Below are positions 38,952 to 61,293 of a stretch of DNA of 64,000 nucleotides, piece after piece (within the stretch, counting starts at the first letter, position 1; each line of letters opens with the position of its first letter). This DNA comes from Prorocentrum cordatum (Eukaryota; Sar; Dinophyceae; Prorocentrales; Prorocentraceae), in NCBI GenBank assembly GCA_963575745.1, contig CAUYUJ010014353.1, positions 66,501-130,500 on the forward strand, read 5' to 3'. The translations under genes and the position numbers were made by a program. The notes under the pieces were generated by a model. It ran no database searches and was not told the DNA's origin. It was given only the letters and a program-made list of their open reading frames with translations.

Positions 38952-38985
38952 CCCTGACCTCCACCGTCATGAGTTTCTCACGACG
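38952..38985 (+). repeat. Left terminal inverted repeat (34 bp)
   Basis: 33 of 34 bases match the complement of 61260-61292 and flanking base (C versus T inside CTCACGAC). The inner part already contains the subterminal motif CTCACGAC. Confidence 0.9.
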
Positions 38986-39056
38986 TCCTGAAACGTCATG
39001 AGTTTAACTCACGACGCCAGAGAAAACTCACGACATCGCGAAAAACTCAAGACAAC
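38986..39056. repeat. Left subterminal motif array
   Basis: GTCATGAGTTT (complement AAACTCATGAC) and AACTCACGAC or AACTCAAGAC recur four to five times within 75 bp of the left TIR. In EnSpm-type transposons such arrays bind the element's own protein; that role here is inference. Confidence 0.65.
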
Positions 39057-39299
39057 ACATCAAAATGATTATGGTAGTTCAAAACAACCAAGATAATGAA
39101 AAACATTGTTGTCTTTATAAAACAAAATGGCGACCCAATTAGTTCGAAACAAAACTGTCGTTGTGGCTGGAGTGGCCCAGATATTCGCGTTGGGCCTGTA
39201 GTTGTAGCATTGGAGCTTTTGCGAGAGCTTTGGGGTCCCTCGGAGCCTTTAACTGCGGGAGCACCGCGCGCGCGCGCTTCCTAGATTCAGTTTTGTAGT

Positions 39300-39590
39300 A
39301 TAAAAATATGGAAAAACGACGCGTTCCTTCGGCCTCCTTAAAGGGCACCAGAAATTTTCGAATTCGTTTTTGGAATGAAATGTGGATTTATTAGTGGTGA
39401 ATAATATACACGCGAAGCTCAGCGGAGCGCCGCCGCGCGCGCGGCGGCGCTCTGCTAAACTTAGCTTGTGTATTATTCACCATTAATAAATCTACATCTA
39501 ATTCCAAAAACGAAATCGAAAAATTCTGGTGCCCTTTAAGGAGGCCGAAGGAACGCGTCGGGTTTTCCATATTTTTATAGAATCTACTAT
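39300..39590. repeat. Long foldback: 130-bp arms around GC-rich centre
   Basis: The left arm 39300-39430 (GACGCGTTCCTTCGGCCTCC, AAAGGGCACCAGAAATTTTC) is repeated as its complement at 39450-39590, about a CGCCGCCGCGCGCGCGGCGGCG centre near 39442. A third copy in left-arm orientation is at 60850-60970, near the other end of the transposon. Confidence 0.85.

Positions 39591-39675
<85 letters not shown>
39584..39675. repeat. (CTA)n microsatellite
   Basis: About 28 CTA/ACT units directly inside the foldback. The complement (GTA)n lies at the mirror-image place at 60661-60840. Confidence 0.95.
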
Positions 39676-39676
<1 letters not shown>

Positions 39677-39699
39677 GGGGCAGAAAACAGATTCAGACA

Positions 39700-40940
39700 T
39701 GCCGTCGGTAGGAACCGCAGAAATTTGCATTATTAGTAATATTAGTAATATAGTACATGTGTATTTTGCGAAGAGGAATGCAGGGGGCATGTTTTTCACA
39801 ACACACATTGTTCAAGCACGCATGTGCAAGCAGCCTTTGCGACAAGGCCTTGTCGAGCAACGGCAACGCCCAGGTGACAACATTCAACTGGACATCTTCT
39901 GCCGAGGACCAGACAGAGAAATTATCGAGAATCTGTTTCTTTTCCGTTGAAGCCTTTGGAGCCTTTTGCGGGGGCTTTTGGGGCCATTTGCGGGGGCCTG
40001 CGTTTCTTTGTTTGTTTTTTTGTTTTTTTGTCGTTGTTTGTTGTTGTTTTGTTTTGTTTTCTGAGAGAGGGCAAGGAGGACAGTGCAAACTGCGAGAGGC
40101 AGACAAACAAGAAAAACAGCTGTGCCGTCGTCTGGATAACACTCGCTTGTGCTATATATGTATATATATATATGTATATATATATGTATTGAGTGTTTTC
40201 CAGGGGCGGCAACATACCAATCGTGCAGATGAAATGCGGGAACACGGCCTCGACCCGGCAGGGTAGCCACGCGGCCTCGACGTTGCGCCGACAAGCCTTG
40301 GCCATTCCTCTTCCCCCTCCCCCTCCTCCTCCTCCTCGCCCTCCTCCTCCTCCTCATCTTCCCCGAGCCTTTCGGGGAGATTCCTATATTTGCCCGTGCG
40401 TGACCCGAGGAACAAAGCAATCGTGAGGAGTGATGGGCACATATATGGAATACTATACCGACTAGTTCGGAACATTCCCATCTCCCCCGTGGGTCCAGGA
40501 AGTGGGGCGAGGATATATGGGCACATATGGAAGAATATTCAAAGTGGGGGTTTGGAGGGTTGGGAAAACGGAGGCAACCCCATGTCTCTTCACGCAGCGG
40601 ATCTGGCGTTCAGTACGCAGCCGCAGCGCCTACCGCCACGCTGCAGCCCACCACCTCGCATGGTGAACCCTCTCCTCCCGTTCCCCTCGTCCTCCTCCTC
40701 CCGTTCCTTATCTTCGTTTTCCTTCGCCCACCCCCTCGTATGGTGAGCCCTCTCGGGGGGGGGCGCCCCATGCATGGTGAGACATATTGAAACGGAGCGC
40801 CCCCCCCCCTGGTGAAACATATTCAAGCGGAGCGGGCCCGTGCCTCGCGTCCGCTCTTGCGTCCTCCTCCTCCTTCTCTTCTTTATCCTCATCTTGTTCC
40901 TCATTTTCCTTTTCCTCTGCTTCCGATTATGCCTCCTCCT
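39700..40940. other. No clear gene; short minus-strand coding-like segment
   Basis: 39770-39910 on the minus strand reads LLDKALSQRLLAHACLNN then CCEKHAPCIPLRK, which is protein-like but short and unrecognised. The rest is T-rich sequence (39995-40060), (TA)n at 40152-40190 and CTC tracts. Confidence 0.35.
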
Positions 40941-40944
40941 GTTC

Positions 40945-41442
40945 CACCTTCTTCCTTCCCGCGCTTGGTTCCGAGAGAGGAAACGCAGGCCTGCTGCGAA
41001 GTGCGCGGCCTGTCGTTTCTCGCTGGGGAAAAAAAGGGAACGCCATTTCCTTCCTCCTCCTCCTCCTCCTCTTCCTCCTCCTTCTCTTTCTTCCACCTTC
41101 CTTCCCGCGCTTGGCTCCGAGAGCGGAGGAAACGCAGGCCTGCTGCGAAGTGCGCGGCCTGTCGTTTCTCTCTGGAGAAAAAAATGGAACGTCATGTCCT
41201 TCCTCCTCCTCCTATTCCTCCGCCTTCTCTGTTTCCACCTTCCTTCCCACGCTTGGCTCCGAGAGCGGAGGAAACGCAGGCCTGCTGCGAAGTGCGCGGC
41301 CTGTCGTTTCTCTCTGGAGAAAAAATGGAACGCCATTTCCTTCCTCCTCCTCTTCCTCCTCCTTCTCTTTTTCCACCTTCCTTCCCACGCTTGGCTCCGA
41401 GAGCGGAGGAAACGCAGGCCCGCTGCGAAACGCGCGGCCTGA
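40945..41442. repeat. ~145-bp tandem repeat, 4 copies
   Basis: Each unit has CCTTCC(C)(A/G)CGCTTGG(C/T)TCCG, GGAAACGCAGGCC(T/C)GCTGCG, a CGCGGCCTGTCGTTTCTC block, AAAAA(T)GGAACG and a CTCCTC tract. Units start near 40948, 41097, 41240 and 41380. Confidence 0.85.
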
Positions 41443-41666
41443 TCATGAACAGCTCCGCCCTCAGGAGCGCCTGAAGCGCACCATGCTTCTGCCGCACGGC
41501 CCCTTGGTGAAACATACTCAAGGAAAGACGCAGCACGGGGCCCTCTGCGCTAAATTGCGATGATCGTTCGTCTCATGAGAAGCGAGATCGATGATCATTT
41601 GTCTGGTTAGAAGGGTTCCCCCTCATCATTCCTCATTGTTCCCTCTTCATTCACCATCCAAAGAAC

Positions 41667-44403
41667 TCAACAATGTTCGATGAGAACTTTCTCTAAAAAA
41701 CGGGTGTAGAACGTGGGGCCAGCGTGCAGCGATTTTGCGACCCGACCCATCAGACGGTTCTCTTGTTCGTCTGCGTAGGTCCAATAAAAACGGGGGTTCC
41801 CGTGGGTTTCCACGTATTCGGGGATGTGGAAGGCCATGTGGTGCTTAAAAAGTTTGTGGCCCCCAGCCCCTTTCCAAAAATGAAGAAACCTTAACATGGC
41901 CTTCTGAAGGCGATCGCGGCCACCATCGGACATCCGACGTGGCTCGCGCATCATCACATCCTGGGCTTCATGGAGAGCCTTGGCGGCGATGGCAATGTTG
42001 GGCCCATGAGGGCCTAAAAAACGCAAACTGTCCGAGCACAGCTGCACAGCAAACGGTATCAAATGGCGTGTCTCGGCGGCTTTAGCTTTCAACCTGGGGA
42101 ATTGGTTCTCTTTCGCGGGGGCGAACATCTTATAGGTGATCCGATTGATACGGCACCTTTTCCCACGAGGCAGCGGCGTTGCAAGGTAGAACGCCCGAAG
42201 TCGCCTGGGAATGGGACTCTCCCCAAGCACTGATCGAGACGCCACCTTCCTGGCTAGACGGCGTTCGCGTTGTTTTTTTGGGGTGCCCTCCAGCCCCTGC
42301 CTCCTCCTCCTCCTCCTCATCCTTGTCCTCGTCTCCCTCCTCATCCTCCTCCTCCGTCTCCTCCTCCTCCTCCCCTTGCCCCCCCAACGCCGCAATCCAC
42401 CATCTTGCCAGGAAGTGGTCATTCGAACAATGCCCGTGGGGAGCCCGATTCGGCCTCCTCAAGTGAAGCAGGTTGTCGTGTTTCCGTAACTTTGCGTTCG
42501 CTCTCAGCGAGCGTGCAAAGTTATTCTTACACACACGATGAAAGATCAAACCAATAAGGCATTGTGAGCACCCGAGATCCAATATGCGCATCACGTCAAG
42601 GTGAACATTGTTCACAGAAAAGCCAACAACCGAGAACAGGGGGCATAACAAGTTGAGACCCATTCCAGCTTTGTTGTCAAAGAAAGTCAACCGCAAGGGT
42701 GGAACGAGTTCGCGTAATCGATGAATGTCTTTGACAGGGCCAGCTTCGATGAGGCGCATCCCTGGTTCGAGGTTCAGTCCGCGAACTTGCTGAAACGTGG
42801 CGAAACCGCCGTAAACCTCGTCAAAACGCACGCAAGCTAACAGCATGTCAAACTGAGCTCTCGTGGGAACGTCGATTTCGATCGTAGATCGTTGCACCAT
42901 GATCTGGTAAGCGGTTGCATCCCGTGGGACCCACGTACATTGGGAGTAGGTTGCAGGCCAATTGTATAGCTCATTTTTTTTGCACCCACATTTGAAACAT
43001 GGGTTCTCGACGTTGGACCAGGTTTTAAATCCAAGCGCGCTGACGATATCCAGCAAGTCGGCCCTCAGTTCAGTGAGGGCCCCAATCCAACCAGATGCGA
43101 GGGGCTGACCAGCCCTAGCAATGCGGGCAGCATCCGTGAAAGGTTCACCGAGATGGTTGGACAACGGATGGCGCCCATCGCCGAGAATATTAAACGACCA
43201 AGCGATAACGCGAAGCAATGTCCCAAAGGTGCAATACCCACGACAACCGCACTTGCAAACGTCAGACTTCCTGAGGGCTGCTATCAGATACCTGCAGGCC
43301 CACCGTGGGAGACAAACAATATACAAAACCCCCATCACCCCCTCAACCCCCTATCATCCCCATCATCCCATCATCCCCTCATCCCTCTCCTGGATCCTGC
43401 CCCCCCTCCCCTCTATAGGAGCCCTGGTCCCTGTGCCTCAGCCTGGGCGTACTAGCGCGCGGGAGCACGCCACTCCGCCGATGTTGCTCGGGTCGGGCGC
43501 AGGATGGTCGAAACCACGTGCCAGCGCCCAACTCCGAGACAGTTCGGCTGATGGCTTCCCGGACTACACCAGGGTGTGCGACAGGAACAGGGCCCCAGGA
43601 CTCATGCGTCCTGGCGCCCTGTTCCCGTCACAGGAACAGGGCCCCAAGACACATGCACACATATTCATGTTTGTTTCCCAGTTGTGCCTCTTCCCAGTGA
43701 GGAGATTCGTACAGCAATGTGCAAAAAATGAATCTTTGCGCGTGTGTGGCACGCCGTCAGAGAAATACCCAACAGGCGCAGCACGACCTGGGCAGCGCTG
43801 AACCAGCTCGTGGTCAGCAAAGGTCGGCGACAGCATATCAGGATCAACATTGATGCATAGGGGGCCAAACTGCGCGCTGATGTGAGTGCGTGTGGTTCCT
43901 CCCCGCATCTCCTCCCCCTTTTCCCTCCTCCCTCTGTGCCGCGCGCACGCGCGCGCGCACCAACGTGCATGATGGCACCCTTAACTCGGATCCCAGTCAG
44001 CTGGGGAATCAGAAAACGCTCTCGAAAACTGTTCGTGCGGCAAGTTCATCGGAAACGGCACGAGCTCCCTTGAATTCGTAGCCTCGTCCCACATGGGAAC
44101 TTGGGTCCAGTAAAAGGAAGCGCCAGCACGAACTCCAATCGCGGTCCTCACGTGTTCAGCCTGGTGTGTAGACGATGGGTCCAGGGCTAAATCACAAACA
44201 CCGCGCGCACCAGCTCGCGTGGCATGGAACGCAAGGGAACACACGGCAGTGGCACTGAGCTCGCCACGCTTATAGGCCTCCAATATCCACGTCCGCAGGC
44301 CAGTGCCATCGAACGCCTCAGCCGCCTCATCGACCACCGACGCACCCTGGTGGCGGAGAGCAGAGCCCACGAGCAACCTCGTTCCAGCAGCCCTCGACGC
44401 CAT
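41667..44403 (-). CDS. Transposase-like protein, several exons, zinc motifs
   Basis: Best candidate for the enzyme that moved the 22-kb element. Exon 1 from ATG 44403 (MASRAAGTRLLVGSALRH) ends near 43985 (NLPHEQFSRAFSDSPADWDP). Exon 2, about 43870-43690, has VGYFSDGVPHTRKDSFFAHC and TNLLTGKRH. Exon 3 starts near 43290 with ALRKSDVCKCGCRGYCTF, then AGQPLASGWIGALTELRADL, ENPCFKCGCKKNELYNW, HLDVMRILDLGCSQ and VCKNNFARSLRANAK. After an acidic, CTC-encoded tract with a frame change near 42300 comes HLIPFAVQLCSDSLRFLGPH, then HIPEYVETHGNPRFYW and TYADEQENRLMG, and the stop at 41667. The late H-I-P-E...D-E-x-E order resembles the end of TNP2/Plavaka-type DDE transposases. I recognise it as a family multiplied in dinoflagellates; the transposase label is inference. 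About 700 aa in all. Confidence 0.6.
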
Positions 44404-44457
44404 CGAAGTGGAAGGCGGGATCCAGCGGAAAGATGGACATGCGAGGGAAGCCCGAAA

Positions 44458-44557
44458 TCTCGAATCAAAACAGCTACGGACAACTATTGGTATGTGAACC
44501 ACCTCGGAGCAAATCTCGGAACAACGGAAATCGCAGCAACCTCGAAACAAAACCGCT
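44458..44557 (-). other. Two SL-like degenerate motifs upstream of transposase-like gene
   Basis: 44480-44459 matches the SL at 17 of 22 positions, all five differences being transitions; 44556-44536 matches at about 15 of 21. Both read toward the ATG at 44403. They could be old SL relics of a retroposed ancestor or a chance repeat, since the two also resemble each other. Confidence 0.35.
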
Positions 44558-44646
44558 ACAGACACATACATCCCGATAGAGTCTACGACATCAAGACATG
44601 CGCTGGGTTGCCAGACGAACCTAGTTTGGAAGCATGGTTCGTGTTG

Positions 44647-44823
44647 TTACCCTTCTGATGTTGTTTCTGGTGATGCCGTTGCCGATGCATCCTTGAGATC
44701 GTAGGGCTCTAATGTGGTTGTTGTTGGTGTTGTTGTTGTTGTTGTTGTGGTGGTGGTTGTTGGTGTTGTTGGTGTTGTTGGTGGTGTTGATGTTGTTGTT
44801 GTTGTTGTTGTTGCTGTTGGTGC

Positions 44824-44860
<37 letters not shown>

Positions 44861-47340
44861 CTTGTTGTTGTTGTTGCTGTGGTTGTGGTTGTGGTTGTGG
44901 TTGTGGTTGTTGTTGTTGTTGTTGTTGTTGGTGTTGTTGTTGTTGGCGTTGGTGTTGTCGTTGGTTTTACGGGCCTCGCAGCCCTCGATGGAGAGCTAAC
45001 CTGAGACGTCAGAAGAACCAGAACGCTTGAGACGCGAGGGCGATGACCCGTCAAATTTTTGCCGATCGCTAGCGAGCACGTCTCGGACAGCAGAGCTGTC
45101 GCACCCGTCGCGTGCGCCCGCGGAGCACCAGCGTCAAAAGAACTCAATGGATGCCTTCCCTCCCTGGCCGCCTCCTCCTCCTCCTCCTCCTCCTCCTCTT
45201 GCTCCTCCTCATCCTCCTCCTCCTCCTCCTCCCCCTCCCCCTCGTCGTCCTCCTCATCCTCCACCTCCTCCTCCTCCTCCTCCTTCCCCTCTCCTCCTCG
45301 AGCATCCGTGCTCTTGGGTCCAGGGGGTCTTGGGTGCAAGCGCCGCGCTTCTGGCCGCGGCGAGCCTCGTATCATTCGGTCAGGGGCTATCCTCCTCCTC
45401 GTCCTCATCCTCCTCCTCGATCCTCATCCTCCGCCTCCTTCTCCTACCCCCCCCTCCTCCTCCCCCTCGTCCTCCTCCTCCTCTTCCTCTTCCTCTCCTC
45501 CTCCTCCTCCTGATCCTCCTACGCAGGAGGGCTGTCACCAGTACCTCACTGGTTGATGGCAGCTGCCGCCTTGGCGTACGTCTCGGCCAAAGGAGCGAGC
45601 GAACTCCACAGCGCAGCGGCCTCAGGGTACATCTCCATCTTCTGCATCCGTCTCGCTCCCCCTCTCGTCACGCTTCTCCTCCTCCTCCTCCTCCTCCTCC
45701 TCTTCCTCCTCCTCTCCTCTTCCTACTCATCATCGCCCTCATCCTCAACATCCCTCTTCCTCCTAATCCTCTTCCTCATCCTCCCCCTCGCCCTTCCCCT
45801 CCTCCTCATCTTCCCTCATCATCCTCTCCACCCCTCACCTCCTCGGTCATGGCCCGAGCAGGTACTCTCGGGATGGTCGGGGGAAGGGGTTCGAAACATG
45901 TTGGGAGCATCGGCCTTAGCGATGGCCTCCTTGGCCTGGTCCACGTCATCTGACCTGCGCCCCCACGACAGCGCCCGCGACGCTGACGACGCTGCGACAT
46001 CCACGCAGGACGCTGTGGCATCCTCACAGCGCCTCTTGCCTCCTCTTCCTCCTCCTCCTCATCCTTCTCTTCCTCTTCCTCCCCCCCTCCGCCTCCTCCT
46101 CACCATATTCCTTCTCCTGTCGTGATATTATTCCTGGTCCATCTCCTCCTTCACCTCATTCCCCTCATCCTTCTCGTCATCGTGTTTTTGTCTGGTTACG
46201 GTCTCTCTTCCTCCTGCTGCTCATCATCCTCGGCATCATCCAACGCTCCCTGACCCTGATCCTACTCCTACTCCGACTCCACATCCTCCAACTGAACTTC
46301 ACCCTCCAACAAGCAAGAGGACTTCCCCTGAATATGCTTGGTGATGTCCGAAGCCGCCGCGTCCAGGTCGGCGAGCGTCTCCGTCACCTGCTTCTTGAAG
46401 GGGGCCAGCCGCGCATTTTTGCCCACCTCCGACCCCCCTTCAAAAATGCGAGTGAGGATGATCATGCTGCCCTCTCCCTCCCTCTCTCCCTCCCTCCCTC
46501 CTTACACCCCTCCCTCCCTCCATCCCTCCACCCGTCCATCCATCCCTTCCCTCCGTCGCTCACCCCCCCCTCCATTCCACCATGCAAGTCGCTTCAGCGC
46601 GCGCCCCCGAAAGAGCAAGCAATCCCGAAACCCTGAGCCACCTGTAGGTCAGACAAGTGGACCCTGTAGGCCGACGCGTCCCCGAGGAGCTGCGCCATCT
46701 CGGCCGAGACGCGGTGCGTCGCCGAGCTCGCGCCAGGAGTGTCCTGGCGCAACCCCGTCACGAGGGAGGGGGAGAGGGGGGCGAGGGACGAGACCAGCGC
46801 ACGGGATAGGATTGATGACTCCAGGGGCAAACATCGATGGCGTGACAATGAAGGTGTGGACAGTGGCGGGGAAACCACGTAGACAATCTGGAAAAAAACA
46901 AGTAGGACGGCAACATAGCAACAAGAAACACGAGAGCAAGAGAGCGAAGATGCATTGCCGTCCTCATCCGAGCCTTCGTTGCTCGAGTACGACGAGTAGT
47001 AGGAGTAGTCGTCTTCGTCCTGGCCCATCCGCGCTGGCTCCGCGCCTCCTCCTTCCGTCCCCCCTTCCCTCCGCCTCTTTATCCCCCTCCTCCGTCCTCC
47101 TCCATACCTCCTCCTCGACGCCGATCCCCTAACTCTCATCAAGTCTAGCTGATCACCACCGTCCGCCAGACGGCCCCCACGGCAGGGCAGGCTCGAGCTC
47201 ATTGCTTCCGCAAATGCTTGTCAACAACATGATTCTCGTCCGCATCCTCTCCATCCTCACCGTTCTCCCTAGCATCCTCCTCCTTATCAGTTGCCGCATC
47301 CTCCTCCTCATCATGATCATCACCACCATCATCACCATCA

Positions 47341-47375
<35 letters not shown>

Positions 47376-49443
47376 CATCCTCATCCTCATCCTCATCCTC
47401 ATCCTCATCCTCTCCTCCTCCTCATCCTCATCATCCTCCTCATCCTACTCCTCCTCCTCATCCTACTCCTCCTCTCCTCCTCTTTCTCCCCATCCTCCTC
47501 CTCCTCATCCCTATTATCACCTTCTTCGCATGCGTTCGTGCATCTTGCACCTCCCTCCCTCGCCATCCTTCACCACGTTGGCCTTTCCCTGGCGGTGTTC
47601 CTCAGGGATCTCCTTGGCGTCGCTCTTCAGCAAGGTGCTCACCTTCTGAATGTGTCCCTCGCGGGCGAGGAAATGAGCAGGAGGGAGGGCGGGTGGACGG
47701 AAGACAGCAGACGGAATGACGGAAGGTGAGGGAGGAGGAGGGGGGGGATGAGGAGGAGGAGGATAAGATGGGGGAGGAGGAGGAGGAGGAGGAGGAGGAG
47801 GAGGAAAATGAGGATTCGGACGAGGACGAGGACGAGGAGGAGGGGGAGCGTGCCGAAGAACGAACGATGAGTAGGACGAGGAGGAGGAGGAGGATGAGGA
47901 GGAGGGGGATGAGGCGGTGGGGCACGAGGGTTGCTTAAGAAAGGTGGGCGGCATGGCGTCCCGTGCCTTCCGCTGCAGATCTTTGTAGTCGATCTGCTTG
48001 TAAAGGATCTCCTTGTGCTGCTCGTGCACCTCCGCAGGCGAGGGGGGGGTCATTATTCATGGCCCACCTCAGGTTCCTCCCCAATCTCCTCGTATAGTCT
48101 TCCTCATCCCCCTCATCATTATAATCGTCATTCCGCACTTCCGCATCCTCTGCATGGCCCTTCTCTTCACATTCTTCAAGTATGCTTATGATCCGCCTCC
48201 TCCTCCTCCTCCTCCTCCTCCTCCTCCTCCTCCTCCTCCTCATGGTCATCATCATCCTCATCCTTATCATCACCATCCTCACCCATCATCGTTCTCATGT
48301 TCTTCCTCCTCCCTCTCCCTGGTCGGCCTTCGTGAAGCCTTTGACCCGCTGGCAGTAGTGCTTGATCGCGTCGGCTCTGGCCATGGCCCTGTGGAGGGCG
48401 AGGGGCTGACACTCTCGGGGTCCCCCCTCGTCCTGACTCCTCCTCCTCCTCCTCCTGTTCCTGCTTCTGCTCCTCCTCTCTCTCCTCCTCCTCCTCCTCC
48501 CTCTCCTCGTCCTTCTCCCCCTCCTCCTATTCATCCTCCTCATCCTCCTCCTACTTATCCTCCCGTTCCTCCTCCTCCCCATCGATCCTTATCCTCATCC
48601 TCACTCGTATCCTCACCCTCATCCTCGTCATCCTAATCCTCGTCTCTCCCTTATATCTTCATTCATGCCCGCATGCGCGCCGTTGTCCGTACGGCGTCTC
48701 GCTGTTCTCAACCGTCCACTTCTGGGCGGCCAGCAGCTCGTCGTATGTGAACCTGGGCCGCCACATACGGAAGGGGAGAGGGCCTCAACACCAGCCCTTA
48801 GGCACACATATGGATAGGTATGCACATCGAGGTTTTAACACGGAAACAGGTTTAAGAACCAGGTTTAAGAAACAGGTTTCAGAAGGCCGTTGAACCAGGA
48901 GCCCAAGGTGTCGCCCTGATGAACTCTTTCTTTCTCCTCAAGCTTGCTGCTTTCAATTCTCTCGAAATGGCCGTCCTGCTGCCAGATCTGGAGCCACTCC
49001 TTTTTGGTGGTCTTCCTGGCTTTCTTGTATTGCTCCCAGAGGTGCGGCTTGTCTTTCTGCAGTTGGTCCCTCCCCTGCCCATGTGTGATCACGCGATATC
49101 GCCTGCCATAGCGTTTGTTCCTCATCATTCCTTCATCATCCTCTTCGCTCCCTCCTCCTCCTCCTCCTCCTCCTCCTCCTCCTCCTCCTCCCCCTGCCCT
49201 CCTCATCCCCCCACTCCTCCTCCTCGCCCTACCGCCCCTTCCTCATCCTTGTCGTTCTGAGCAAAAACGCCAGAAGCGCTGGTGCCAACCCTCCCTCACG
49301 CCTCAGACGGGCGAGCGTGTTCTCGTGCTCTTTATTTTCGGCCCTCTTCGCTTTCTCTGCTTCGCCACGTTTCGCTTTCCCACGCGAGTATTCTGACTGC
49401 CTGCTGTTGGCGCGCTTCTGGTTCCTGCTGCCCTTCGGCGGCA
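44647..49443 (-). CDS. Cargo gene 2: multi-exon, charged protein of unknown function
   Basis: Starts MPPKGSRNQKRANSRQSEYS at 49443 behind a (TA)n tract. Non-repeat, protein-like islands follow about every 300 bp on the minus strand: 49110-48880 (YKKARKTTKKEWLQIWQQDG), 48785-48670 (WRPRFTYDELLAAQKWTVEN), 48425-48325 (RAMARADAIKHYCQRVKGFT), 48030-47935 (EVHEQHKEILYKQIDYKDLQ), 47690-47520 (GHIQKVSTLLKSDAKEIPEE), 47300-47208 (acidic), 46750-46610 (VSAEMAQLLGDASAYRVHLS), 46440-46268 (KKQVTETLADLDAAASDITK), 46030-45875, 45645-45545, 45400-45300, 45165-44998 and 44705-44647 (stop). Between them are GAG/CTC, CAT and GTT arrays, read as introns. Exon borders are approximate and some islands could be pseudo-exons. 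Composition suggests a soluble, helical, possibly nucleic-acid-associated protein. Not recognised. Confidence 0.5.
44712..44965. repeat. (GTT)n array in last intron of cargo gene 2
   Basis: About 80 interrupted GTT/GTG units; its edges coincide with protein-like exons at 44998 and 44705. A CAG-GTTAGC donor-like junction lies at about 45000. Confidence 0.85.
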
Positions 49444-49459
49444 TGGCCTGCCCTGCCCG

Positions 49460-49814: not shown

Positions 49815-50738
49815 TGCCCGCGCTATATGCTATGCAAGAACCATGGCGGAACCATGATATAACCATCGCTGAACCATGACAGAACCAGGATATAGAACCA
49901 TGACGGAACCATGATAGAACCATGATAGAACCATGACGGAACCATGACGGAACCATGATGGAACCATGATAGAACCATGACGGAACCATGACGGAACCAG
50001 GATATAGAACCACGATATAGAACCAGGATATAGAACCATGATGGAACCATGACGGAACCATGACGGAACCATGACGGAACCATGATAGAACCATGACGGA
50101 ACCAGGATATAGAACCATGATATAGAACCGCGATATGGAACCATGACGGAACCATGATAGAACCATGGCGGAACCATGATATAGAACCATGATATGGAAC
50201 CACGATATAGAACCATGACGGAACCATGATATAACCATGATAGAACCATGACGGAACCAGGAAAGAGAACCACGATATAGAACCATGAAAGAGAACCATG
50301 ATATAGAACCATGATAGAACCATGACGGAACCATGACAGAACCGTGATATAGAACCGTGATATGGAACCATGATTTAGAACCATGACGGAACCATGACGG
50401 AACCATGATAGAACCATGATATAGAACCAGGATATAGAACCATGATATAGAACCATGACGGAACCATGACGGAACCATGATAGAACCATGACGGAACCAT
50501 GATATAGAACCATGATATAGAACCATGACGGAACCATGATAGAACCATGATAGAACCATGATATAGAACCAGGATATAGAACCAGGAAAAAGAACCATGA
50601 TATAGAACCATGACGGAACCATGCTAGAACCATGATAGAACCATGACGGAACCATGACGGAACCATGATGGAACCATGACGGAACCACGATGGAACCACG
50701 ATGGAACCATGACGGAACCATGACGGAACCATGATATA
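49815..50738. repeat. 12-bp minisatellite GGAACCATGA(C/T).
   Basis: More than 70 units of (C/G)GGAACCATGA(C/T) or ATAGAACCATGA with ATATAGAACC variants. The open frames over it (MVPSWFYHGS periodicity) are artefacts of a unit length divisible by three. It separates cargo gene 2 from cargo gene 1. Confidence 0.9.
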
Positions 50739-51499
50739 TCTATACGATGGAACCATGGGCCCCATCATAGAGCCGCCAGCATACCGCATGGCGGTTGCAT
50801 GGCGGGGGCTGCACCACCCGTCTGCCCCCCCATGGGGGGGGCGACGGGCTCAACGGTGCAGCGGTAGAGGTGTGAAACAGTAAGCCGCCGCGCCTCCGTT
50901 TGACATGTTGGCGACACCTGGGCGCGGGCAGGGGGGCGTGAGGGATGCCCTCTCTTCTCCTTCTCCCACTCCTTCCTGCTTCACCTGCTCACCGTTCCAC
51001 TTGTTACCTTAATAATCTCGTTCCTCATCGTTCCCCTCCTCGTCTCATCCTTGTTTCACCGTTCATTGCTCCTTCCACCATTCCTCCTCCTTCCACCGTT
51101 AACCTCCTCCAAAATGTGGCCTCCTTACGTCTCCGCCCTCCCATCTCATTCCTCTCCTCCTCGATTCCCGCCTTATCATCCCCAGCTGTAATACACACGG
51201 CCTGCTGCAACTCGCTTGCTGCAAATCGCACGTTGCACATCGCATGCTGCGCTGCAAATCGCACCCCATGCCCAATCGCCTGCTGCGAATCTTTGGGTCA
51301 AGATCTCCACCGCGCGCGTGCCCTTCGAGCCTCGACGTCCACGGTCGCATGGAAGTTCGAGGGCAGGGGGGTCGGCGGAGAATGGGTACTTGATCCTCTG
51401 ATCCCTCCCCCCTGCGCTAGAGGAGGGGGAGGAGGAGGAAGAGGAGGAGGGGGAGGAGGAGGTGTCCCTCTAGAGGAGGGGAGGGGGGAAACGAGGAGG

Positions 51500-53611
51500 A
51501 GGAGGAGGAGGACGAGTTGGAGGAGGAGGAAGTCGGTGGACCACCAGTTAAGGACCCCATACACAACGACGAGGACCTGATCCATTGTGACCCCAAACCC
51601 GAGCACCTTTCTCGGGGACGAGCGCCTCGAGCCCATCCGTCTGCCAGGGCCGAGGCTCGCACAATCAGAACGCTCGAGCGTTCTGAGTTCTTCTTCTTCC
51701 TCATCCTCCTCCTCCTCGGTTTCCCCCCCCTCCTCCTTCTTCCCCCTTCTCCTCGTATCCTCCTCATCCCTCCTCCCTCCTCCCTCCTCCCTCCTCCTCC
51801 CTCCTCCCTCCTCCCTCCTCCTCCTCCTCCTCCTCATCCTCCTTCTACTCCGCCGCCTCCTCCTTCCTCGATCGTATTATCATGTCTCCTCCTCCTCGTC
51901 ATCTCCCTCCTCTTCCTCCGCTTCCTCCCACGGGATGTCGCTCCCATCCTGAATCCCCTCCATCCTTGCCTCTCTATCCGTTACCGTACCTCGCTCTCCA
52001 CACTTGCTGTCTGCTCTTTCCGAGCTACCCCAGTCCCCCATTCCTCCTCACTCTTCTTCCTTCGTCTATCTCCTCGTGCCGAGCCCCCTCAGCCGTCGAT
52101 AGCCACGAGGACGGCGAGGAAGATGACCTCGTCGCCTCCCCTCTCACGGACAGCGGGAAACAAGACGCGTGGCGTGGGACTTCGCGGATGAGGATGAGCA
52201 CGAGGAGGAGGAGGAGGAGGAGGAGGAGGATGGGGAGGATGAGGAGAAGAGATGGAGAGGGATGATGATAATGTTGGAGGAGGAGAACGGGCAGGACGTC
52301 TTCCCCCCCCCCCCTCCCCCCCGATCTCTTCCTTATCCTCCCCTTCGTCCTCCTCGTCCTCCTCCCCCTCATCCTCATCCTCCTCGGATCCTTCCTCTTC
52401 CTGTTCGTCCTCCTTCTTCTCCTCCCTTCGTTCTCCTCGTGCCGCCGTCTCATCTTCGCCCCACTCCTCATCGAATGTCACATCCTCCTCCTCTTCTCAG
52501 GAGGAGAAGGCGGAGGAGGAGGAGGAGGGGGAGGAGGAGGAGGAGACGCGCGCCCCAGGGGGAGAACGCGGAGACGCGTGCCTCAGGAGGAGAAGGAGGA
52601 GACGCGCGCCTCAGGAGGAGGAGGGGAAGGAACAGGAGGGGGAGGAGGATGGCATGAGGAGAACGAAGAGAAGGAGGAGGATCATACGAGGAAAAGGAGG
52701 AGACGCGCGCCTCAAGAGGAGAAGTCGCACGCCTCCTCCTCCTGCTCCTTCTCCTCCTCCTCTTCTGCTCTGCTCATCCTCGATCCTCCGTCGCCTCCAT
52801 CCGTGCGAGCCCCTCGCCACGCTCTTCCGCTTCACCTTCCTCCTTCTCTGTCTCATCGTGCCGTTCCCGTTCCCTCCTCCTCGTCGCTCCCCCGTCCGTC
52901 CTCTCCTCATCCTCCTTCTCCCCCATCATTTCCTCCTCCACTTCCTGAAGATGGGTGGCACGGGGTAGAGAGGGGTGGCCCTCCTCTTCCTCAACCTCCT
53001 CCCTCCTCCCCTCATCGGATCTGAGTGTCATTTATCCTCATCCTCGTCCTGATGCGCTTCGTTCTTATCCTTCTCCTGCTCCATCCCAGGGGTGTGGTAT
53101 CCTCCCACGTTGTTGCTATCCGCTTGATCGGTCCTCCTCACCCTCCTCCTCCTACACATCCCCCCGTTCTCGTCGTGCCTTCTCCTCATCCTCGCTCCAC
53201 TCCTGATGCGCCTGGTCTTGGTCATGCTCGATCATCCTCCGTCTGATCATCATCCTGCTGTTTATCGCTATGCTCCTTCTCATGGTGCGCCCCTCCTCTT
53301 CACGCCGATCAGCGGCAGGATCGCCAGCATGAATGCCAACCGCCGCACCTGCCCCTCGCTCTGCGACGCATCATGCTCGACGCCGCAGCCGCCACCAAGA
53401 TAACGTCAACGTCACATGCATACGCGAACATGCACTGGCACACTCAACCAACAAGCACACACTGACGTCCCCCCCCTCCCCGCCAAAAACTGCATTCTAG
53501 TCGCGCACCGCCTTCTGCGCGATGTCCTCATTTGCCTCCGAAAGGCAGGTGTTGATCCTCCCCCCCCCTCATCCTCATCCTCATCGTCATCATCATCATC
53601 ATCATCATCAG

Positions 53612-53643
<32 letters not shown>

Positions 53644-55763
53644 CCATCAGCATCAGCATCAGCATCAGCATCATCATCATCGTCCTCCTCCTCCTCCTCA
53701 TCTCCTCCTCCTCCTCGTCCTCCTCGTCTTCCTCTTCCCCCGTCCTCGTCCTCCTCGAGGCACCTTCCCTTTCTCCTCCTCCTCCTTTCTCCTTATCCTC
53801 AGCTTCATCCTCCTCATCCTCCTCCTCCTCCTCTTCATCCTCCTCCTCCCCTTCCTCCTCCTAGCCCGCCTGGGCCGATGGCCAGTTTCTCAAGCACGTC
53901 ATCCCGCGCCTGCATCGCCTTGGCCCTGCTGGTGGCGCGGGTCTCCGCGATCCTGATCACCACGTAGTTGGCGATCAGCTTGGTCATGGTGCGGGCATCG
54001 GGCTGGCCCATCTTGCGCCACTGGGCCTCCGTCCACAGATTGTCGCGCACCTGGGTCACCTGCCAGCAGTTGCTCTTGCCGTCGGAGATGACGATGCAAG
54101 TGTGGCCGTCCGCATTATTCTGCCTCTGCTTGCATTGCCAGGTCTTGCCCTGGGCGTTGAACGTCCTCGAGGCCTTGCCTGGCGCGTCGGTCGGCTCCTC
54201 GCCATCTTCGCCTGCTGCCTCCTCGCCGCCTGCTGCCTCCTCGCCGTCTTCGCCTGCTGCCTCCTCGCCGTCTTCGCCTGCTGCCTCCTCGCCGTCTTCG
54301 CCTGCCTCCTCGCCGTCTTCGCCTGCTGCCTCCTCGCCGTCTGCGCCTGCCCCCTCGGCTGCGCCTGCTGCCTCCTCGTCTTCGCCTGCGCAGGCCTCCT
54401 CGGCTGCGCCTGCTGCCTCCTCGTCTTCGCCTGCTGCCTCCTCGCTTTCGCCTCCCTCGGCGTCACCTCCTGCCTCCTCGCTCTCCTCGTCCTCTGCCTC
54501 CTCCTGCGCGGCCTCGGGCGCTGCCTCCTCCTCTGGGGCCTTCGCCTTCTTCTGGGCTGTGGCGGTCCTCTTCGCGGCGGCCGCGCTGGCCTTTGCCTTT
54601 CCCTTCGGGCGAGGCTTCCTCCCAGCTTCTGCGTCCAGCCACGAAGGCTGCGGCGGCGCAACCACTGGAGCCGCCATCGGCAGTGCTGCCGACTGCTGCC
54701 TCTTCTTGTCCTTGTGCTTGTGCTTGCTCTTGCTCTTCTTGCTCGAGGTCTTGATCTTGTGCTCCTTCTTGGTCTTGATGCCGAGCAAGCTGCCATAGAA
54801 CTGCATCGAAGATGCCGACGATGATGATCCTGCTGGTCCCGACGCCGACACCTTAGCCCGCTTCGGCTGCTGCTCCATGCCCACCGCGCCTCTCGGGCCT
54901 GGAGCTTTCACAGCTGCCGCTGGCGGGCCTGGAGCCTTCACTGCTGGCGTCTTGGAGCCTGGAGCCTTCACCTCCGTCTTGGAGCCTGGAGCCTTGACTG
55001 CCGTCGTGGGGCCTGGAGCCTTCACTGCCGTCTTTGAGCCTGGAGCCTTCACTGCCGCCTTTGAGCCTGGAGCCTTCACTGCCGCTGCCGCTGCCGTCGA
55101 TGGGCCTGGAGCCTTCCCTGCCGTCGATGGGCCTGGAGCCTTCGCTGATGCTGCCGTCGACGGGCCTGGAGCCTTCACTGCCGCTGCCGTCGATGGGCCT
55201 GGAGCCTTGACCGCCGCTGCCGTCACTGGGCCTGGAGCCTTCACTGCCGGTGGCGCCGCCTCCTCCACCTCCTCCACCTCCTCCTCGACGTCCTCTTGCG
55301 CAGGCTCCTCCTCCACCTCCTCGCCCTCGGCCGCGGGATCCTCGACCTGGGCCGCGCAGGGCCCGAGGAGGTCCCCGCGCGACACTCCGACGATGCTTGC
55401 ATACTCTTCGACCAACTCGTCGTCGGTGACCTCCAGCACAGTCTGTGAGCTCGCATCATCCTGGCAGGGCCCTTGGAAGAAAAAAAAGAGGAGGAGCCTG
55501 CGCCTGCAGGCCTCCTCCTGGCAGGAGGAGGAGGATGAGGAGGAGAAGGAGGAGGAGAAGGAGGAGGGGGAGGAGATTGAAGATGAGGAGAGCAACGAGG
55601 CGGAGGAGGATAAGGAGGAGTAGAGGGAGGAGGAGGAACACATCAGGGGGGGAAGACGTCCCAGCCATTTCTTCTCTTCCCCCTTCCGTTCCTCCAACAC
55701 TCCTCCTCTCCTTCTTCCTCTCACTCTCAGCTCCTCCTCCTCCGCCTGCTCCTGCTCCTCGTG

Positions 55764-55823
<60 letters not shown>

Positions 55824-57377
55824 CATCATCAGCAGCAGCATCATCAACATCACCATCATCATCATCATCATCATCATCATCAGCATCAGCATCAGCATCA
55901 TCATCATTATCATCATTATCATCATCAACATCATCATCATCATCCTCGCCCTCGAAAAGATCTCGGTTTCTGATCCCCCACGTGTCCACAGGGCTCGGTC
56001 GACTTTCTCCTGCTGAGGGGGAGTAGGGCTCGCTGGAGTCTGAGCTGAGGAGTGGGGGGATGGTGGGGAATGAGGAGTGGAATGACGAGGATGACGACGA
56101 CAGCGACGAGGATCCGCTCGACGAAGCAAGAACGGATCCGAGGGAACGAGCAGTCTGCCATCGTGCAGCCCCTCCTCCGCTCCCTCGAGCGCTGCCCATT
56201 CTTCCCCAGTTATGTCAGCGTCCTCGGGCGAGCGGCAATCGAGAATGCGGAGGAGGGGTTCACCGAAAGAGAGGACGTGGACGACGTACGCAGTTTGAAT
56301 TCGCTCCTCCAGGGTCGCATTGCTGAAGAACGTCGCCAACTCTTCTGGCGACACGTCGCTGTCGTCGTCGGGGGCACGCTGCTGGGTGTCGGTCTCCTAG
56401 CGATGCCCCTTGCTGCTGCTCATGCTCGTGATCGGCCCTCCTCCTCGTCAGTCTGCTCTCCTCCTCCTCCTCCTCCTCCTCCTCGTCCTGACACTCGTCG
56501 GTTCCGTCCTCGCCTCCCCCATTTACTCATCCTCCTGCTCCGCCTCGTTCTCCTCCTGCTCCGCCTCTTTCTCCTCCTGCTCCGCCTCTGTCTCCTCCTG
56601 CTCTTCCACCCCATCCTCATATTCATCCGCGTTCCTCCTGCTGCTCATCTGCGGCCGCGCTCCTGCCCATCATCAGGGTGCGTGCGCAGATAGTGCGAGT
56701 ACATCATCCTCACCGTGCGGCTTTGCAAGTACCTGTCTTATAGGCTCGATCGGGCGTTTGCTTTGGGGGTATGATTTTGGATGGAGGTTCTGCGGTGGGA
56801 CGGTGGGGTGAGGTTTTCGGGTGAGGTTGTGCTCCAGGCGTTTTCCCAGCTGAATTGTGTTACACTGGGGCCCTGCGGACACTGGGGGGGGGGGGGGTCT
56901 TTCGGGGTTGCTGGGGGAAGGGGCCTCGATCGTCATCGGACTCTGGCTCGCGGCACTTCGAGGCCGAGGTAACTTCACAACGCAGCGCTACCATCCTCCA
57001 CCTCCTCTTCCTCATGACCCACGGTGTATCCTCACGAGCCCGCGGCATCCCCATGATGCGTTTCCCTCTTCGAGGCCCCTCCTCTTCTCCTCCTCCTCCT
57101 CCTCCGCCTCCTCCTCCTCCTTCCCCTCCTCATCATCATCCGTTTCCTTCGCCGCCTCATCCACGGGCGCTGCTGCATCCCCGCAGCGCTGCCCCGCTGC
57201 ATCACCGACGCCGACGCGCTGCCCCTATCCCCCGCCTCCTCCTTCTTCTCCCCGTACCTCCCAAACCAAGGAGGGAACATGATCCCGTTCAGGCGCCTGG
57301 CCTGCGGCTTCCTGCCCTTATCCGTGCGCCAACCGTCGATGTACCTCTGGTGGAACGCCTTGTGCCACGCGTCCTGC

Positions 57378-57436
<59 letters not shown>

Positions 57437-57557
57437 TCCCTCTCCTCTCTCTCTCTCTCTCTCTCTCTCCCTACCCCTCCTGCCCTCATCATCATCAGCA
57501 GCATCAGCATCGCCGTCATCATCATCATCATCGTCGTGGTCACCATCATCATCCTCG

Positions 57558-57598
<41 letters not shown>

Positions 57599-59167
57599 GC
57601 ATCAGCATCAGCATCAGCTTCACCATGCTCACCATCATCATCACACGTCTCATCTCTCTTCCCCTCGTCCTGATCGATTGCTGTCGCTGAGGCAATCGTC
57701 GCTGCCATCGCCGAGACTGTCGCCGACATGGCTGGGACCGTCGTCGAGACCGCCGTCATCGAGGGTAGCTTCGAAACCGCTGCTCCTCCTCCTCCTCCTC
57801 CTCCTCCTCCTCCTCCTTCCTCCTTTGGCACGCCTCCTCGTTTCCCTCCTCACTTCTCCTCTTCCTCCTTCCCCTCCTCACTTTCGCGTCATCCTCTTCC
57901 TCTTCCTCCGCATAGCTCCCATCTTCCGTATCCTAATGCCCTGCCGTTGCGGTCCATCATCAGCTTCTGGCTGTAGCGCTTGCCTGCGCCGATCATCTTG
58001 AGCGTGCTGATCAGCTTGACCTCGGCCTCGAGATGGGGGGGGGGGGGGCGAAGGGAGGGGTGGAGAATCTGCAGTAAGATGCAGGAGGGACTTAGACCAC
58101 ACGGACGGGAACGATCAGATCACGTGGACGAGAGCGTCCTTCACCACCTCATCCTCCTACAGCATCCTCTCACCTGCTCTCCTCCCTCATAATCCTTGTT
58201 CGCTTCATCCCCCTAAATCCTCATCTCACCTGCTCACCTGCTCTCCTCCCTCATGAGGCCCTCCTTCATCCGAAAACGTTCCTGCGCCTCTAAGTTGTTC
58301 CACTCGAGTCCAAGCTCCCCCCCCCCGAGCCTGCAGCTCGTCCACCTTCGGTCGATCTTCGAACTTCTCACAGCTGTAGCGGAACTCGGGGATCTTGCCT
58401 TCGAAGCCTTGACAGGCGACGGCTCATCGTTGGTCGTCGTCGAGGCCGACGTCGGAGCCATCGTCGACGCCGTTGCCAGTGCCATCGTCGGGGCCGTATC
58501 GAGGCCGTCGTCGAAGCCGTCGTCGAAAGCGTCGTCGAGGCCGTCGTCTCAGCGTCTCCTCGCCCTCATCTTCGTCCTCAGTACCCGCGTCCTCTTTGTC
58601 CTCATCCTCAGGCTCATCCTCCTCATCGCCGTCGTCTTCGTCCTCGTTCTCATCCTTATCCTCCTCGATCCTCTTCGTGGTCCTCATCCTTGGCTCACGG
58701 GCGCCTTCCAGGAACGCGTGGTCCCCGTCGAAGTCGAGGAGAGCCTCGCTCGGATGGAGGCGGATTGGAGGAAAGTGGAGGAGGAAAGTAGAGAAGAATG
58801 AGGAGGAGGAGGAGGAGGAGTGGGATGAGGAGGAGGCGTTGAGTGGGACCCAGGAGGAGTGGGAGGAGCAGGAGGAGTGGGAAGAGTGGGAGGAGTGGGA
58901 GGAGTCGGATCCCAGGAGGAGGAGGAGGAGGATCGAGGAGTGAGAGGAGGAGTGGCAGGAGGAGCGGGAGGAGGAGAGAAGAAACAGGATGAGGAGTGGG
59001 AGGAGGAGCGGGAGGAAGAGGAGTGGGAGGAGTGGGAGGGGTGGGAGGAGGAGTAGTGGGAGGAGGAGGAGTGGGAGGAGGAGACTAGAGCAGAGCCTGA
59101 GCCACCAGTTCAGCATCCACTCGAACCGTGGCCTCGAACCTGAACTTCTTCGCCTTCGGGGTCATGT
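51500..59167 (-). CDS. Cargo gene 1: multi-exon protein with KAPG repeats
   Basis: Starts MTPKAKKFRFEATVRVDAEL at 59167 after a TAG acceptor-like site. Islands on the same strand: 58768-58697 (LLDFDGDHAFLEGA), 58410-58272 (IPEFRYSCEKFEDRPKVDEL), 58036-57930 (LISTLKMIGAGKRYSQKLMM), 57372-57255 (AWHKAFHQRYIDGWRTDKGR), 57072-57008 (KRIMGMPRAREDTPWVMR), 56742-56672 (YLQSRTVRMMYSHYLRTHP), 56364-56165 (SPEELATFFSNATLEERIQT), 55480-53868 (large exon), 53552-53498 (CLSEANEDIAQKAVRD) and 53390-53290 (SEGQVRRLAFMLAILPLIGV). Weaker islands continue to about 51535 and the 3' end is not defined. The large exon has about 14 KAPG(P/S) repeats, a Lys/His/Ser-rich basic block and AAGEDGEE acidic repeats, like a linker-rich nuclear protein. 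No domain recognised. Introns hold GAG, CAT and TC arrays. Confidence 0.5.
53868..55480 (-). CDS. Large exon of cargo gene 1 (KAPG / basic / acidic repeats)
   Basis: About 530 codons. It opens DDASSQTVLEVTDDELVEEY, then an acidic stretch, then about 14 copies of (V/A)KAPGP/S..A (55240-54895), QQPKRAKVSASG, a basic block of Lys, Ser and His (54760-54690, nuclear-localisation-like), PRPKGKAKASAAAAKR, about ten AAGEDGEEA repeats (54480-54200) and a conserved-looking C-terminal domain (TWQCKQRQNNADGHTCIVIS, QVRDNLWTEAQWRKMGQ, KLIANYVVIRIAETRATSRA). The alternating Lys-Pro and Glu repeats resemble disordered chromatin or RNA-associated proteins; that is inference. Confidence 0.6.
55762..55945. repeat. 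(ATC)n / CAT microsatellite in intron
   Basis: About 55 interrupted ATC units between the 56165 and 55480 exon edges. Similar arrays are at 53585-53690 and 57555-57630 (also intronic) and 47330-47410. Confidence 0.9.
57378..57470. repeat. (TC)n microsatellite in intron
   Basis: About 45 CT units, directly 3' (plus strand) of the exon at 57372-57255. Confidence 0.95.
58800..59090. repeat. (GAG)n / GGAGGAGTGGGA array, first intron of cargo gene 1
   Basis: Interrupted purine array on the plus strand between the first and second recognised exons. Confidence 0.85.
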
Positions 59168-59749
59168 CGACGGAAGGAGCCTATCGGGGAAGAGCAGCGG
59201 CAGCGGCAGCAGAACCAGCAGCCGCGGGGGCCCAGGAATTAAGGCCGAGGCCACTTGGAGGACGGGGAAGGGGGCGAATCTGAAGAAGGAGGAGGGGGAA
59301 CATTTCAAAGTTAGCATCCTGCTCGTGTGCGCCCTCTTCCTGATCCTCCTGCTGATCCTGATTCTCCTCCTGACTTTTCCTCCTCCTCACTTTCTTCTTC
59401 CTCCCTCGTTCTTCCTCCTCCTCATGTTCTTCCTCCTCCTCATGTTCTTCCTTCTCCCTCGTTTCTTCCTCCTCATTTATTCCGCTCCTCCTCCTACTTT
59501 TCCTTCTCTCCTCCTCAAGCTTTTCCTCCTCCTCATTTTCTTCCTCCTCCCTCGTCTCCTCGATCCTCCTCCTCCCGTTTCTGATCTCCTCCCCCAGTTA
59601 GTCCATCCACTGCCTGACGCAGTGATGGACACGCCTGCCGCGTCCCAGGCGCGCGGCTGCGGGCGTGGCCGTACGATCGGCGCGTCGAGGTCGGTGTGCC
59701 CCTCGATCCACACGAACGTGGTGTACCTCGAGCGCTCGCAGGCGCATGA

Positions 59750-59793
59750 TCGGCCAATCCCGCAACCCCCATGGGGGTTGCGGGATTGGCCGA
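59750..59793. repeat. 44-bp perfect palindrome
   Basis: TCGGCCAATCCCGCAACCCC, then CATG, then the exact complement, with no spacer. It is the centre of a weaker, larger dyad (GCATGATCGGCC / GGCCGACGCATGG). Confidence 0.95.
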
Positions 59794-60660
59794 CGCATGG
59801 GCCCACGACCCCCGTCGATCCCAAGGAAATGCCACCCTTGCTTTAGAATGGGCACCCGGCGGCCCACGCGCGCTGGATGAGCTCTTCGCTGATGGGCCCT
59901 GGGGCCGGCCAGCCGCGCGCCCAGGGCCCTGGGACATCTGCAGGAGGCAGGCAATGTACACTCCAAGGGCGGCCAGGCGGCCAATTGAACTGCAGAGCCT
60001 CCTCGAAGCTCCGCCGCCATGGGGCTGGCTGCACCCACGCTGGCTCTCCTGGCCACCTGGGCCCAGGCTGGGCGTGGACTGGCCAGCCCAGCGGGTCTGA
60101 CCACGTGCGCGCATGTCGCGCGGAGACACGGCCGTGGCGGAGGACACGTGGAGTTCGCTCCCGCGGTCGCGAGCCACGCATATAACCCGAGGCGTTTCTC
60201 CTTTCGATCCATTGCTTTTCTGTTAGTCCTCCTCCTCCTCCTCCTCGTTTTCCTCCTTCCTCCTCTTCCTCCTACTTTTCCTCTTCCTCCTCCTCCTCCA
60301 CATCCTTCCCTTCCTACCTCCACCTCCTGGGTCGACGGAAAAAGGCCTCGAGGTGCGGCCGCCGCCGCGAGCGGGGGGGCGCGGCGCCGCGCGGCGCCGC
60401 GCTCGCGAGAGTTCGGAGAACTCTCGAGCACAAATGGCTGCCCGCGCGCGCGGTCGCGCGCTGGCAAGCGGGGGGATGTCAAGGACAGGCTGTCGAGCTG
60501 GAGAAGGGGAGAAAAGAGAAATATGAGGTTGGAAAGATAAAGGAATGTTAAGCGAACCGCCGCTGCTGGCCTGGACAAGCTCATTAATGGGTCACTGCCG
60601 TCGGGGGGTGGGTGAAAGGGGGGAACAAGATGAACGCCAGGATGGGGCACCGAGTAATAA

Positions 60661-60718
60661 CACCAGTATAGTAGTATTAATAGTCGTAGTAGTAGTCGTA
60701 CTAGTAGTACTAGTAGTC

Positions 60719-60767
<49 letters not shown>

Positions 60768-60778
60768 CGGTGGTAGTC

Positions 60779-60830
<52 letters not shown>

Positions 60831-60842
60831 TAGTAGTAGATT
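60661..60842. repeat. (GTA)n microsatellite
   Basis: About 50 interrupted GTA units, the mirror-image counterpart of (CTA)n at 39584-39675. A related CGTAGT tract is at 60965-61060. Confidence 0.95.
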
Positions 60843-60849
60843 ATTAAAA

Positions 60850-60970
60850 TATAAAATGCCGACGCGTTCCTTCGGCCTCTTTAAAGGGCCCCAGAAATTT
60901 TCGATTTCGTTTTTGGAATTACATGCAGATTTATTAATGGTGAATAATATAGCAGCGAAGCTTAGCGGTA
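60850..60970. repeat. Single arm of the 39300-39590 foldback
   Basis: GACGCGTTCCTTCGGCCTC, then TTTAAAGGGC.CCAGAAATTTTCG, TTTTTGGAAT, then GTGAATAATATA and GCGAAGCT.AGCGG, in the same order as 39320-39432. Confidence 0.85.
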
Positions 60971-61127
60971 GGTACTAGCCGTAGTCGTAGTCGTAGTCGT
61001 AGTCGTAGCCGTAGTCGTAGCCGTAGTCGTATAGTAGTCGTCGTAGTCGTAGTAGTAGTAATAATAGTAGTCATGCCATGTCATAAATGCCATTAAAGAC
61101 ACATCATGCTAATGGGTGTGGTCTGAA

Positions 61128-61258
61128 AACGAAACTCACGACAGCAAAGCAAAACTCACGACATCAAAACAAAACTCACGACATCATAACAAAACTCACG
61201 ACAACTTTGAGAAAAGCCACGATCTCACGACAATGCAAAATACTCACGACAAATGAGG
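61128..61258. repeat. Right subterminal motif array
   Basis: Six to seven copies of (AAA)ACTCACGAC spaced 15-20 bp, then CTCACGAC and ACTCACGAC near the TIR. Same motif as 38986-39056. Confidence 0.75.
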
Positions 61259-61293
61259 CGTCATGAGAAACTCATGACGGTGGAGGTCAGGGG
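61259..61293 (-). repeat. Right terminal inverted repeat
   Basis: Complement of 38952-38985 with one mismatch and one additional outermost G. Confidence 0.9.

Follow-up and report, generated by a model that had tools for sequence, protein, structure and literature searches.

A probable 22-kb cut-and-paste DNA transposon of the RAG1/Transib/CMC group in a LINE of the dinoflagellate Prorocentrum cordatum

In the stretch of Prorocentrum cordatum DNA analysed here (64,000 nucleotides, C13504:66501-130500, hereafter the window), LINE sequence on the minus strand breaks off and resumes about 22 kb further on. What separates the two parts, and how did it come to lie between them? According to the terminal inverted repeats (TIRs) and the comparison with empty sites, a single insertion of 22,341 bp spans positions 38952-61292. 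Very probably it is a cut-and-paste DNA transposon, full-length and of autonomous type, that belongs to the RAG1/Transib/CMC group and entered the LINE with a 2-bp target-site duplication. The TIRs, the 2-bp duplication, the empty sites and a multi-copy family at differing sites are directly established; the activity of the element is something that we infer rather than observe. An earlier note on the same DNA had proposed a TIR-bounded, gene-carrying DNA transposon, and TIRs, further copies with both TIRs, and a transposase with two conserved genes were indeed found. The features of the boundaries are as follows.

38010..38951, minus strand: LINE target, 3' part (RT), adjoining end A (Pfam RVT_1 and empty copies)
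38950..38951, no strand: target-site duplication GT, left copy (direct sequence, empty LINE sites, TIR pairs)
38952..38985, plus strand: TIR of end A, beginning CCCTGACCTCC..., 33 of 34 bp equal to end B
39454..39600, plus strand: inner inverted repeat, end A side (blastn and repeat search; partner 60823-60966)
60823..60966, minus strand: inner inverted repeat, end B side (blastn; partner 39454-39600)
61259..61292, minus strand: TIR of end B, 33 of 34 positions equal to end A
61293..61294, no strand: target-site duplication GT, right copy (direct sequence, empty LINE sites, TIR pairs)
61295..64000, minus strand: LINE target, 5' part, adjoining end B and running to the end of the window (Pfam Exo_endo_phos and empty copies)

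The TIR sequence is CCCTGACCTCCACCGTCATGAGTTTCTCA.GACG at 38952-38985, and it is found inverted at 61259-61292. The left repeat and the start of the right one are where the earlier note had placed them, but the right edge is 61292, and 61293 already belongs to the flank. The inner inverted repeats are 86% identical over 147 columns (blastn). The interior of the element contains many simple repeats.

Minus-strand LINE sequence had been reported at both outer edges, and this holds: an endonuclease domain lies beyond end B in 62547-63269 (Pfam Exo_endo_phos, E 8.3e-9, above cut-off), and a reverse transcriptase beyond end A in 38010-38966 (RVT_1, E 0.0056, below its cut-off). When the two flanks were joined with one GT to give a 300-nt query, 15 matches were obtained in the genome. 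Six of them are LINE copies that cover the joined site uninterrupted, from about query position 3 to 299 (one from 3 to 294), at 81-85% identity, and two further matches cover it almost wholly at 66%. The remainder comprises three half-sites in the window and C12885, two half-matches at C9269 (94% identity) and two shorter matches (71% and 74%). The junction was read in three LINE copies. C14811 and C19546, both among the six, are gapless at the insertion point, so that the halves abut with neither loss nor gain of bases; C9269, a closer copy, reads CAACGCTGTGTGGCC over the junction, followed by a GAG run. The LINE is a retrotransposon that was in place before the transposon entered it. The length of the protein across the junction (about 42 residues against 43 in an intact LINE), which had been put forward as an argument for a complete target, is of little weight, because all three minus frames of the joined 300-nt site hold a stop.

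The genome searched comprises 4.13 Gb in 21,875 contigs, a size that agrees with a dinoflagellate host, as do the two GC-AG introns listed below. The terminal 28-mer CCTGACCTCCACCGTCATGAGTTTCTCA occurs at 53 sites with up to three mismatches, against none for the reversed control, and a looser TIR pattern of 24 places, with up to two mismatches allowed, finds 174 sites where its control finds 4, so that related TIRs are widespread. Among the 50 of the 53 sites that were read individually, 26 form 13 inverted pairs, the pair in the window included, which answers the question of other copies with both TIRs. Another 14 are solo copies of end A with one flank in common, 6 are further single ends, and 4, all with three mismatches, start with CCAGACC and appear unrelated or distant. 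The paired ends are 21.7-24.0 kb apart in 12 of 13 cases and 38.8 kb apart in C19633, where a CT run encloses about 16.5 kb of additional DNA that has LINE-like frames. Read at full length, the copies in C14589, C12885, C21037 and C19633 each align along the whole window copy; identity to it is 93.7-98.7% in the main blast pieces, with single 1-kb bins dipping to 86.7% in a repeat. A second subfamily (C17310 and C1403, both fetched over their length, with some stretches reading N) has the ends in common with the window copy, 82-84% DNA identity in the transposase region, and weak conservation of pieces of two further genes. The protein of transposase exon 3 has at least 149 matches in the genome (147 scored out of 4,141 first-look candidates), many of them in single open frames of at least 500 codons. 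The window element is one branch within a large family.

The 13 pairs also bear on the target-site duplication. The window reads CTGT to the left of the element and GTGTGG to the right, which, set against the empty site CTGTGTGG, makes GT the duplicated sequence. TGT, as noted earlier, is present on both sides, because the site is CTGTGTGG (locally GTGTG), but a 3-bp TGT duplication was rejected: joining the flanks with one TGT loses 2 bp that are present in the empty sites, and only one of the 13 pairs fits 3 bp. With CCCTGAC taken as the element end, the flanks of all pairs were compared by script, and nine matched over 2 bp (GT in the window, TA, CT, TT, TT, GC, AC, TT and CC); for a chance of 1/16 per pair, nine or more matches in 13 have P 8e-9. 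A match over 1 bp was seen in six pairs, and no pair matched over 4, 5 or 6 bp, so that the 5-bp duplication of RAG and Transib was found in 0 of 13. Tc1/mariner elements duplicate TA, whereas the nine matching pairs do not show a constant TA.

The pairs without a 2-bp match are C12885, C13911, C13744 and C16121. In C12885, the flank at end B is the LINE flank of the window (1,500 of 1,500 bp identical), and the flank at end A is different; C13911 and C14099 agree at 961 of 961 bp in one flank. Towards the shared flank (about 44.7-60.8 kb), 1-kb bins of C12885 are 99.0-100% identical to the window, apart from a last, repeat-rich bin at 96.8%, and away from it they are 95.3-99.0% identical. The pattern in C12885 and C13911 looks like recombination between copies. 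This would explain two of the four pairs; C13744 and C16121 are outside that explanation.

The coding features of the element, all on the minus strand, are listed next.

43984..44403, minus strand: transposase exon 1; its open frame aligns with the N-terminal region of the intact homolog P0001 (44403 is a tentative start codon, and the 3' edge is approximate)
43688..43869, minus strand: transposase exon 2, with the first catalytic D (FSDGVPHT; P0001 alignment, 5' edge approximate)
43292..43687, minus strand: transposase intron 2, GC-AG (by eye and P0001 alignment)
42455..43291, minus strand: transposase exon 3, with CxCxC, second D, CxxC and LDxM (tblastn of P0001 at 43293-42454, 40% identity)
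42205..42454, minus strand: transposase intron 3, GC-AG, with a low-complexity GAG run (by eye and P0001 alignment)
41667..42204, minus strand: transposase exon 4, with HxxxxH and catalytic E, then a stop (tblastn of P0001 at 42206-41673, 46% identity; splice point by eye)
46630..49459, minus strand: gene 2, candidate conserved coding pieces (protein conservation against subfamily 2; exon joins tentative)
53874..54167, minus strand: gene 3, conserved 98-aa stretch (protein conservation; within an 853-aa open frame, 53838-56396)

No stop interrupts the predicted transposase exons, exon 3 included, and they retain the catalytic order D, D, E, in which a CxxC follows the second D and an HxxxxH precedes E. 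The predicted fold of homologous transposases matches the core of RAG1, the recombinase of vertebrate antibody genes, from about residue 460 to 996, other folds being possible as well, and includes a RAG1-like RNase H core with a helical insertion. By analogy with these homologs, the window copy would itself adopt a RAG1-type fold. On account of the predicted fold, which is that of homologs, and of the motifs, the transposase can be placed as a putative DDE enzyme of the RAG1/Transib/CMC group. Searches of PDB sequences gave no match with one transposase exon, and nothing relevant with a profile of 25 homologs (one ATP synthase chain, E 1.2).

Genes 2 and 3 share the strand of the transposase and are located upstream of it. 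The pieces of gene 2 are 49391-49459 (ATG at 49444), 48871-49071, 48680-48754, 47961-48032 and 46630-46734. Gene 2 has at least 50 matches in the genome (150 of 418 candidates scored) and gene 3 at least 55 (150 of 169 scored). With 36 of the 149 transposase matches and 54 of the 55 gene 3 matches taken into the neighbour counts, at least 34 of the 50 matches to gene 2 are followed downstream, within 20 kb, by a transposase match on their own strand, 32 of these at 5.4-7.6 kb, and at least 37 of 50 have a gene 3 match 3.65-6.3 kb upstream; 7 of 50 have neither neighbour among the matches entered. The three genes occur in order at seven loci (C14813, C21377, C15683, C15166, C10335, C18689 and C17699), where the transposases are 54-67% identical to that of the window, and the two subfamilies are additional to these. 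The two partner genes keep a constant order. A six-frame scan of the whole element found no Pfam domain in either of them; they may have roles in transposition.

The ends of the element carry, in addition to the TIRs, copies of a short motif.

38966..39034, no strand: CTCAYGAC cluster of end A, five copies in both orientations (exact at 38966, 38977, 38995, 39008 and 39027)
61135..61278, no strand: CTCAYGAC cluster of end B, eight copies (exact motif matches)

On both strands of the window, CTCAYGAC occurs 14 times, and 13 of these copies are within 160 bp of the element ends. The ends of both subfamily 2 copies contain nine CTCAAGAC and zero CTCACGAC or CTCATGAC, and those of subfamily 1 contain one CTCAAGAC. 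The change of motif parallels the change of the TIR between the subfamilies, from GTCATGAG to GTCTTGAG. The simplest account would be one DNA-binding protein for both the TIR and the subterminal motif copies. In the most probable mechanism, a protein encoded by the element, perhaps the transposase or a partner gene product, would bind to both ends, each with its CTCAYGAC array and TIR; transposases would then bring the two ends together and excise the element, which would be joined to the target with a 2-bp stagger. Since RAG and Transib cutting leaves hairpins on the flanks, hairpins might be left here too.

Among known systems, RAG1/RAG2 and the RAG-like transposons ProtoRAG and BbRAGL resemble the element in the RAG1-core fold predicted for its homologs and in the order D, D, CxxC, HxxxxH, E, and in the multi-gene make-up. 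However, RAG and ProtoRAG have a 5-bp target-site duplication and ends that start with CAC (the heptamer), in contrast to 2 bp here and to CCCTGAC, with which either end of every one of the 13 pairs starts; the element measures 22 kb and has its three recognised genes on one strand, and by Pfam comparison no likeness to RAG2 is seen in genes 2 and 3. Transib elements are compact, and their 5-bp duplication and CAC ends also differ from the 2 bp and CCC found here. The CMC group (CACTA/EnSpm, Mirage, Chapaev), which is akin to Transib and RAG, has duplications of 2-4 bp and ends that start with CAC. The element is therefore not filed under RAG, Transib or CMC: duplication and ends do not fit the first two, and the ends do not fit the third. 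It could tentatively be regarded as a separate lineage at the level of a superfamily, a proposal that we hold at somewhat less than an even chance, the other option being a divergent branch of CMC. In this proposal, a transposase with the RAG1 fold, present outside animals and in great abundance in this genome, would move in giant elements with a fixed set of three genes, and the end motif would co-evolve with the TIR. The comparison with CMC behind this proposal covers profile, ends and duplication.

Alternatively, the element may be a large member of a CMC family that is already catalogued (CACTA, Mirage or Chapaev), its likeness to RAG1 reflecting the kinship of that group, and only the host would then be new. 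This is a serious possibility, although short of a probable one. The 2-bp duplication is that of Mirage, the DDE transposase has CxxC and HxxxxH, and subterminal motif arrays with accessory genes or proteins are known from EnSpm. On the other hand, no EnSpm-type Pfam model was among the matches of 22 transposase homologs at E up to 1, the EnSpm/CACTA profile was also absent for three sequences at E up to 10, and none of the 13 pairs starts with CAC at either end.

It is unlikely that the 22 kb of interior sequence are largely inert, with the transposase alone functional and genes 2 and 3 as passengers. The richness in simple repeats would suit such a reading, as would the fast evolution of gene 2 (the single piece compared has 37% identity and a dN/dS of 0.44), but order, strand and spacing of the three genes are kept at the seven loci with their divergent transposases and in two subfamilies. 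Size, TIRs and several genes might also recall a virus-like or Polinton-type element or a provirus. This is most improbable: with the entire element scanned in six frames, Pfam gave nothing at the curated cut-off, and hence no sign of viral genes, and no polymerase, capsid, ATPase or protease was found at E up to 0.01. Polinton/Maverick elements carry polymerase, integrase and capsid genes, none of them seen here by Pfam, and duplicate 6 bp instead of 2; the predicted RAG1-type transposase does not fit them either. Pfam hits to DUF6594, Tim54, CDC45, Mucin, New_glue and SR-25 fell in low-complexity frames below the curated cut-offs and were discarded, as was DUF2375, which scored 28.4 against a cut-off of 27 in a repeat-coded frame with no single stretch passing. 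Finally, two unrelated LINE fragments joined by rearrangement or misassembly, which the earlier note had already argued against, are just as improbable in view of the six uninterrupted LINE copies and the exact duplication of GT, even though flank exchange does occur, since C12885 has only one of the two flanks of the window.

To our knowledge, few DNA transposons of more than 20 kb carry a conserved set of genes, and the RAG1 relatives that we know of have been discussed mostly in animals. With its recent copies, the joint shift of motif and TIR between subfamilies and the predicted RAG1-core fold, this transposon family makes the protein that reads the ends testable, and likewise the roles of accessory genes in RAG-type transposition. 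Part of the bulk of the 4-Gb genome may be due to the large number of related transposases. If the element does represent a superfamily of its own, the family would be among the richest sets of RAG1 relatives for studying the origin of the RAG1 partner gene and of end specificity.

An additional inverted TIR pair with a spacing of 22 kb is present on another contig (C16778:777550-799621), and the sequence between these TIRs contains matches to gene 3, gene 2 and the transposase. On a second contig, TIR-like ends at C2007:59939 and 82284 are in equal orientation and separated by 22.3 kb, an arrangement that may possibly reflect tandem elements. At a third site, C12885:745789, 1,500 bp of one flank are identical to the flank at window position 61293, and the opposite flank is unrelated. 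This pattern could be due either to ectopic recombination between element copies or to an assembly join.

Further features lie inside the element and elsewhere in the window:

39312-39565, palindrome of 250 bp immediately interior to end A (arms of 132 nt, 89% complementary)
49859-50788, minisatellite of 11-bp repeat units in the interval from gene 2 to gene 3
5939-13153, minus strand, LINE with long open frames

The inner portion of the palindrome resembles, by sequence match, an inverted repeat close to end B, and the minisatellite translates as HGS..SWF protein repeats. In the LINE at 5939-13153, a frame of 1,808 aa is weakly similar to endonuclease, RT and RNase H, in each case below the Pfam cut-off, and is preceded upstream by an open frame of 596 aa.

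End A, with the TIR at 38952-38985, also occurs alone. The same outer flank is common to 14 solo copies (sites L001, L004, L008, L023, L024, L035-L040 and L042-L044), which retain about 510-730 bp of end A. The inward continuation over ~1.5 kb is likewise shared by all of them except L023 and L037 (12/14). Judged from these shared flanks and continuations, a fragment of end A has been amplified as a portion of a different dispersed repeat.
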